In this document: positions 17,260 to 18,159 of the stretch, piece by piece | Layout: each line of letters opens with the position of its first letter | How positions within the stretch are numbered: the first letter of the stretch is position 1 | Assembly: GCA_902805665.1 (NCBI GenBank) | Contig: CADCTB010000143.1 | Location: 1-55,675 of the forward strand | Direction of reading: 5' to 3' | Origin: an uncultured Acidimicrobiales bacterium | GTDB lineage: Bacteria; Actinomycetota; Acidimicrobiia; Acidimicrobiales; AC-14 | Length of the DNA: 55,675 bases | Notes under the pieces: model-generated | Databases searched by the model: none | What the model saw: the letters and a program-made list of their open reading frames with translations, nothing else | Told to the model about the DNA's origin: nothing | Program-made: the position numbers and the translations under genes

Positions 17260-18159
17260 ATGTTCAAGAACGCGAGCAGAGAGCAGGTCCGCCGGCTGGC
17301 CGACGAGGGTGCGCAGGTGGTGGAGGTGCTCGAGCGCCGGCAGTACCAGCTGGCCCACCTCCCGGGCGCCGTGCACATCCCGGCATGGGAGCTGACACCG
17401 GCCCGGGCCGCCGAGCTCGACCGCACCCGGCCTGTGGTCGTCTACTGCTTCGACACCCTCTGAGACCTCAGTCCCCGAGCAGCGTGCCTGCTCGATCTCT
17501 ACGGCTTCTCCGAGGTCTACGACTACGTCGACGGAAAGTCCGACTGGATGGCGTACGGCCTGCCCGTGGAGGGCACCGACGGGCCGTTCCTCGGCGGCCA
17601 GCTGACCGACGTCGCCACCTGCGACGTGGGGCTCACGGTGGCCGACGCCCGTAAGGTGCTCGACGGCTCGCCGGACGGGTCGGTCATCGTGCTGGCGGGC
17701 GACGGGTTGGTGGTCGGCGAGTTCGAGGCCGGGACGCTCCAGGGGCGTGACGACGCCGACCGCCTCCTCGACGTGATGGACCCCGTCCCGACCACGGTCC
17801 GGCCGAGCGTGACGGTGGCGTCGGTGGCCGAGGCCGGTGGCGGACCGAGCCTGGTGACCACCTCCGACGGCCGGCTCCTGGGCCAGGCCACCGTCGACGC
17901 AGTCGACGGGGAGCACGACCAGGAGGGCCACGACCATGAGGGCCACGACCACGAGGGCCACGACCACGACGCGGACACGGACGCCTTCGACCGTGAGCTG
18001 GCCTCGGTCATGGAGGCCATCGAGGAGCGCTTCGGCGACGAGGAGCCGTCCGAGGACGAACTGCGGTCCTTCCTGCGCGAGCGGCTGCTGGCCGAGGGCA
18101 AGAGCGCCGAGGACGCCGACCGCTTCCTCGACGAGCTCGAGTCCGGGGACGACGGTTGA
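17260..18159 (+). CDS. Rhodanese-CBS-like protein, predicted selenoprotein (Sec68), with His-rich linker
   Basis: One frame from ATG 17260 to TGA 18157-18159, 299 residues if UGA at codon 68 (17461-17463) is decoded. Residues 1-96 are a rhodanese domain: 'AHLPGAVHIPAWEL', strand 'PVVVYC' with catalytic Cys63, active-site loop 'FDTLU-DLSPRAA', then 'LYGFSEVYDYVDGKSDWMAYGLP'. The frame is plainly continuous through the UGA. Related actinobacterial proteins, as I recall, have Cys there. Residues about 114-211 look like a CBS pair ('VMDPVPTTVRPSVTVASVAEA', 'TSDGRLLGQAT'). Residues 218-242 are a (GHDHE)n metal-binding stretch, followed by an acidic helical tail. A SECIS-like hairpin sits 19 nt after the UGA. 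Likely role: sulfur or selenium transfer or redox chemistry with metal and nucleotide sensing (inference). Confidence 0.85.
17461..17463 (+). other. In-frame UGA codon predicted to encode selenocysteine (Sec68)
   Basis: TGA between 'CFDTL' and 'DLSPRAA' in the rhodanese active-site loop. Both flanks belong to one domain in one frame with no gap, and the next start-like codon is 28 codons downstream in the middle of the domain. Confidence 0.82.
17476..17494 (+). promoter_or_regulatory. Predicted bacterial SECIS hairpin in the rhodanese mRNA
   Basis: CGAGCAG (17476-17482) pairs with CTGCTCG (17488-17494), a perfect 7 bp stem, around the loop CGTGC. The loop starts 20 nt after the UGA and has G-U at positions 2-3 (+21/+22). 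Spacing and GU position are identical to the hairpin in the seleno-ATPase gene. A longer-range GACCTC/GAGGTC pairing (17464-17469/17512-17517) could extend it. Confidence 0.78.

Follow-up and report, generated by a model that had tools for sequence, protein, structure and literature searches.

A rhodanese-CBS protein with a predicted selenocysteine at the end of its active-site loop in an uncultured Acidimicrobiales bacterium and its actinobacterial relatives

Selenocysteine (Sec, U) has been described at several positions in rhodanese domains, and a 2026 selenoprotein inventory distinguishes five rhodanese forms, with the motifs UxxS, UxxG, CxU, UxxG and UxxxxU (PMC13188914). Form 5, TsoB (NF045694), is a rhodanese/DsbD fusion-like protein, named as a DsbD fusion in a model of 572 positions. 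Form 3, rhodanese_LYCAU (NF041203), has a Cys before the Sec. Among rhodaneses of known structure, BH2092 (PDB 3nhv/3o3w) has a loop of the type C-x4-C, but is an all-Cys protein with no CBS module and no function named in its records. To cleave thiosulfate, characterised rhodaneses depend on an Arg, Thr or Ser as the last residue of the active-site loop (PMC8533005).

The gene described here occupies positions 17260–18159 on the forward strand of a 55,675-nucleotide stretch of DNA (the window) from an uncultured Acidimicrobiales bacterium. Its product combines a rhodanese domain, in which the active-site loop reads C-F-D-T-L-U from Cys63 to the predicted Sec68, with a CBS-like module. The CxxxxU spacing and the CBS module set it apart from TsoB, and the spacing from the CxU of rhodanese_LYCAU; the protein belongs to neither model, scoring 23.6 bits against NF045694 (cut-off 805) and 15.7 bits against NF041203 (cut-off 115). 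The UxxxxU spacing of TsoB is nevertheless the same as that of the double-Sec relatives described below, and the spacing suggests that position 68 is probably equivalent to the second Sec of TsoB. Forms 1, 2 and 4 also have Sec within the rhodanese domain. The UxxG motif of forms 2 and 4 fits a Sec at the catalytic position of a CxxGxR loop, unlike Sec68, while the UxxS string of form 1 (WP_010941598.1) also fits the U-D-L-S of the window protein. Within the open literature, a CxxxxU rhodanese-CBS protein has no clear entry in the inventory (PMC13188914), as far as form 1 can be compared by its motif string alone, and none of the models in NCBIfam release 20.0 reached its cut-off with the window protein or with the two double-Sec proteins tested. 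RefSeq cuts the gene in two at the UGA in plasmids of Pseudonocardia broussonetiae and P. autotrophica, and in Rubrobacter marinus its gene model is limited to the CBS part. With the same reservation about form 1, these genes probably represent a widespread actinobacterial selenoprotein family that has so far gone unlisted. If so, the inventory would gain a family that includes cultured Rubrobacter and Pseudonocardia, and the gene models now cut at the UGA would be corrected.

A single frame runs from 17260 through the TGA at 17461–17463 (codon 68) and ends at the TGA at 18157–18159, giving 299 codons plus the terminal TGA. A preliminary description of this DNA had proposed that the rhodanese domain continues in one frame through a TGA five residues past the catalytic Cys, and that the downstream piece has no plausible start of its own until mid-domain. 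All of this held up: the PF00581 match spans the TGA (residues 8–98, 17281–17553, E = 1.1e-9), the Cys63 codon that heads the six-residue loop is found at 17446–17448, and the next in-frame ATG, at 17548, is still within the rhodanese domain. When the gene was compared with that of a member of the same genus (G001), dN was 0.096 and dS 0.43 upstream of the TGA, and 0.175 and 0.42, respectively, downstream of it, with most substitutions at third codon positions. By this measure, purifying selection is acting on both sides of the TGA. Because the reading frame is conserved on both sides, the in-frame TGA is not a chance occurrence. Sequencing error, which the preliminary description had raised as a possible source of the TGA, is ruled out by its independent recurrence in homologues. 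A reassigned genetic code, in which TGA would encode Trp or Gly, was rejected because the gene itself terminates at TGA and homologues have Cys.

A scan of the genome contigs with the single protein as query returned one relative only. In the family as a whole, about 87 distinct genes, spread over many families of Actinomycetota, have TGA in the identical column, and the alignment at position 68, proposed earlier as a check, gave 87 Sec, four Cys and at least two Ser, i.e., Sec or Cys with rare exceptions. The distinct sequences in the tree comprised 69 of the type C-x4-U, 18 U-x4-U, four C-x4-C of the family proper and two with Ser, together with six sequences of a more distant CxxxxC group. 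The TGA-bearing genes cluster on this tree, and the four Cys forms (L023, L031, L158 and L173) make up a small clade nested in a Sec-dominated one; Cys is also found at this position in the wider CxxxxC rhodaneses. In about 18 relatives of the same class, a second in-frame TGA replaces the catalytic Cys, giving UxxxxU. Read in this way, the alignment indicates that Cys and Sec replace each other at both ends of the active-site loop, and that in the U-x4-U clade both positions tolerate, and apparently favor, Sec. In most of the family, Sec would be the rule and Cys the exception, one clade having Sec at both redox positions, and with the matched natural variants CxxxxC, CxxxxU and UxxxxU one could test directly what a rhodanese loop gains from Sec in place of Cys. 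The two sequences with Ser, from G516 (L179) and G561 (L180), are diverged members, one of which also has Asp at position 63 and is probably inactive; both genomes keep a tRNA-Sec.

Just downstream of the UGA, at 17476–17494, the window gene can form a bSECIS-like hairpin in which the 7-bp stem CGAGCAG/CUGCUCG closes the loop CGUGC. The hairpin also appears in the minimum-energy fold, and its loop lies about 22 nt past the U of the UGA, with a G early in the apical loop, as in bacterial SECIS elements. All seven pairs form in 73 of 76 distinct Sec genes, and the loop reads CGUGN in every gene of two sets (53 of 53 Sec genes in one, and 17 of 17 double-Sec genes in the other). No gene with the full seven-pair hairpin was found among the four Cys-form family genes or the 16 CxxxxC genes examined. 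At the sixth pair, C-G alternates with A-U and U-A even though this alters the protein (Arg to Leu or Gln), and the covariation score was above those of all 500 shuffles. Double-Sec genes have the same hairpin, placed 15 nt farther from their first UGA. An Rfam scan of the window gave no matches and did not report the hairpin.

The window genome encodes SelA, SelB and SelD as well as a tRNA-Sec (a match of 65 bits). The selA and selB genes adjoin, as in a SelA-SelB operon, and selD itself has an in-frame TGA. Two single-contig genomes differ in both respects: the Sec form occurs together with a tRNA-Sec in G434, whereas in G640 the gene is of the Cys form and no tRNA-Sec was matched. Among the other Cys-form genomes, no tRNA-Sec match was found in G070, and the match in G664 is weak (49.8 bits) and probably reflects another tRNA, while G054 has a clear tRNA-Sec. 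Of the Sec-form carriers among 66 genomes, about one-third gave no tRNA-Sec match; these are mostly fragmented metagenome-assembled genomes, although G158, rated 99% complete, is one of them.

We conclude that UGA codon 68 is almost certainly decoded as Sec, as the preliminary description had proposed; the homologues, the bSECIS-like hairpin and the complete Sec machinery all support this. The alternative is that the TGA is a true stop, so that the gene is either decayed or split into a rhodanese and a separate CBS protein. The two ORFs in the RefSeq annotation of Pseudonocardia would fit such an arrangement, but it accounts poorly for a TGA at the identical position in so many genes, for selection on both sides of it, for the covariation of the hairpin, for the presence of Sec machinery in the genome and for the replacement of the TGA by Cys in four members, three of them from genomes (G070, G640 and G664) with no convincing tRNA-Sec. 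We regard a true stop as very improbable.

The AlphaFold2 model of the window protein (mean pLDDT 92, pTM 0.71) has a rhodanese fold in its N-terminal domain, with best Z scores of 18.6 to 3tp9 and 18.1 to 3nhv; BH2092, at Z = 18, also ranks with the closest rhodanese structures in sequence-profile comparisons. The rhodanese profile was matched by all 53 aligned members, in which Cys63, Asp65, residue 68, Asp69, Ser71 and Arg73 are invariant. The second module, at about residues 109–212 (17584–17895), has near its start Cys121, which is kept in 47 of the 53 members. The earlier label "CBS-like" is borne out for the family, since PF00571 is matched by 47 of 53 members. The window protein itself, one of the diverged members of the family, has a module too diverged for Pfam and gave no match at a threshold of E = 0.01. 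A profile search did match CBS structures over residues 109–223. A His/Asp-rich linker (17905–17967), with pLDDT below 50 at residues 223–235, and a C-terminal three-helix module (17968–18147) follow; the linker is confined to the members from the window, G001 and G049, all three of which also have the helical tail. The helical module is also present in proteins of G001, G002, G005 and G006 and in a second rhodanese of the window genome (L048, G000:C162, 3644–4219 on the reverse strand), which has the loop CRAGTR. Another rhodanese in the window genome (L002/L047, G000:C213, at about 6056) has a CxxxC (YCSRSCEMS) in place of the CxxxxU.

Because the loop ends in Sec and carries Asp65 and Asp69, the protein is most likely not a classical thiosulfate sulfurtransferase; in all 53 aligned members, the loop-end Arg, Thr or Ser of those enzymes is replaced by Sec or Cys. 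A Sec at the end of an Asp-bearing loop instead favors a Cys63/Sec68 pair, and this pairing gains weight from the relatives that have Sec at both positions. In the mechanism that we propose, SelB and tRNA-Sec would decode UGA 68 through the hairpin just downstream. Cys63 and Sec68 would work as a closely spaced thiol/selenol pair, either passing through a selenenylsulfide in each cycle or binding a soft group (sulfane sulfur, selenium or a soft metal ion) and letting it go again, while the CBS module would sense a nucleotide and gate the activity. We put the probability of this whole explanation, a selenoprotein with a rhodanese-CBS fusion, a redox or soft-group pair and CBS gating, at about 0.6. 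Judged one by one, Cys63 and Sec68 probably act as a pair, a role in redox or soft-metal chemistry, as opposed to the transfer of sulfur from thiosulfate, is about as likely as not, and gating by the CBS module is conceivable but somewhat doubtful. A selenenylsulfide between Cys63 and Sec68, or the handling of persulfide or selenium, both raised in the preliminary description, is plausible.

Sec68 might also be decoded in a protein that is a sulfurtransferase or selenotransferase, in which Cys63 would carry the sulfane sulfur or selenium and Sec68 would help to accept or release it. The catalytic Cys63 is intact on a rhodanese scaffold, and the sequence weakly resembles rhodanese domains of the MnmH type, which act on selenium. 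On the other hand, the loop is acidic and lacks the terminal Arg, Thr or Ser (PMC8533005), one clade has Sec in place of the catalytic Cys, and an all-against-all comparison of ORFs at the family loci revealed neither a conserved neighbor for sulfur or selenium delivery nor any operon partner conserved across the whole family. A transferase appears unlikely, and we give a similarly low rating to a role in soft-metal or organomercury handling, in which MerB or thiols would pass Hg(II) or an ion like it to the Cys/Sec pair. The latter idea stems from the gene neighborhoods. Linkage to MerB, MerR and the DF family (seleno)protein (NF049942; a separate protein and a frequent neighbor of part of the family, the copies here carrying Cys) was noticed first in named plasmid loci, and the enrichment test was chosen after the first case. 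DF and/or MerB genes were found within 6 kb of 9 of 49 family loci and in none of 40 control regions (Fisher p = 0.004, in a post hoc test on loci that are not independent). MerB, DF and the selenorhodanese are contiguous in G434, G441 and a Pseudonocardia autotrophica plasmid, MerB adjoins the family gene in G005, and DF is directly upstream in at least nine of about 19 double-Sec loci, together with a MerR-type regulator in eight of these. However, most family loci have no DF, MerB or MerR genes, and because genes of this kind move jointly on mobile islands, their linkage need not reflect a common chemistry. Co-occurrence with DF at the genome level in close relatives was unconvincing (carriers G017, G036, G049 and G054 among 15 DF genomes). 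Since none of the three genes is present in the region around the window gene, and neither DF nor MerB was found in the window genome, the link to MerB and DF cannot explain everything.

The preferred reading, a Cys63/Sec68 redox or soft-group pair, could be extended to the double-Sec relatives, in which the exchange of Cys and Sec at both loop ends would make UxxxxU a possible diselenide center, and the branch with MerR, DF and MerB a selenium-based soft-metal or redox relay; we offer this extension as a tentative idea, and a rather unlikely one. At the C-terminus of many U-x4-U members is the motif DC-x-GC (D-C-[DEN]-G-C), which might provide a resolving pair. In L153–L156 and L159–L177, many of the double-Sec C-termini carry a conserved motif of the type DC-x-GCPG-x-W, which the window protein does not have. 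In-frame TGA codons were also seen in MerB matches. Those in G027, G071, G015, G067, G091, G033, G013 and G107 may be alignments overrunning a stop. In L251 (G060:C83, 44200–45900), the TGA of a MerB-like protein falls in the matched domain, close to where MerB has a conserved Cys, and this is a possible Sec-containing protein. Finally, the L144 locus (G288:C13) has two selenorhodanese copies within about 6 kb, one of which adjoins a MerR-type regulator.
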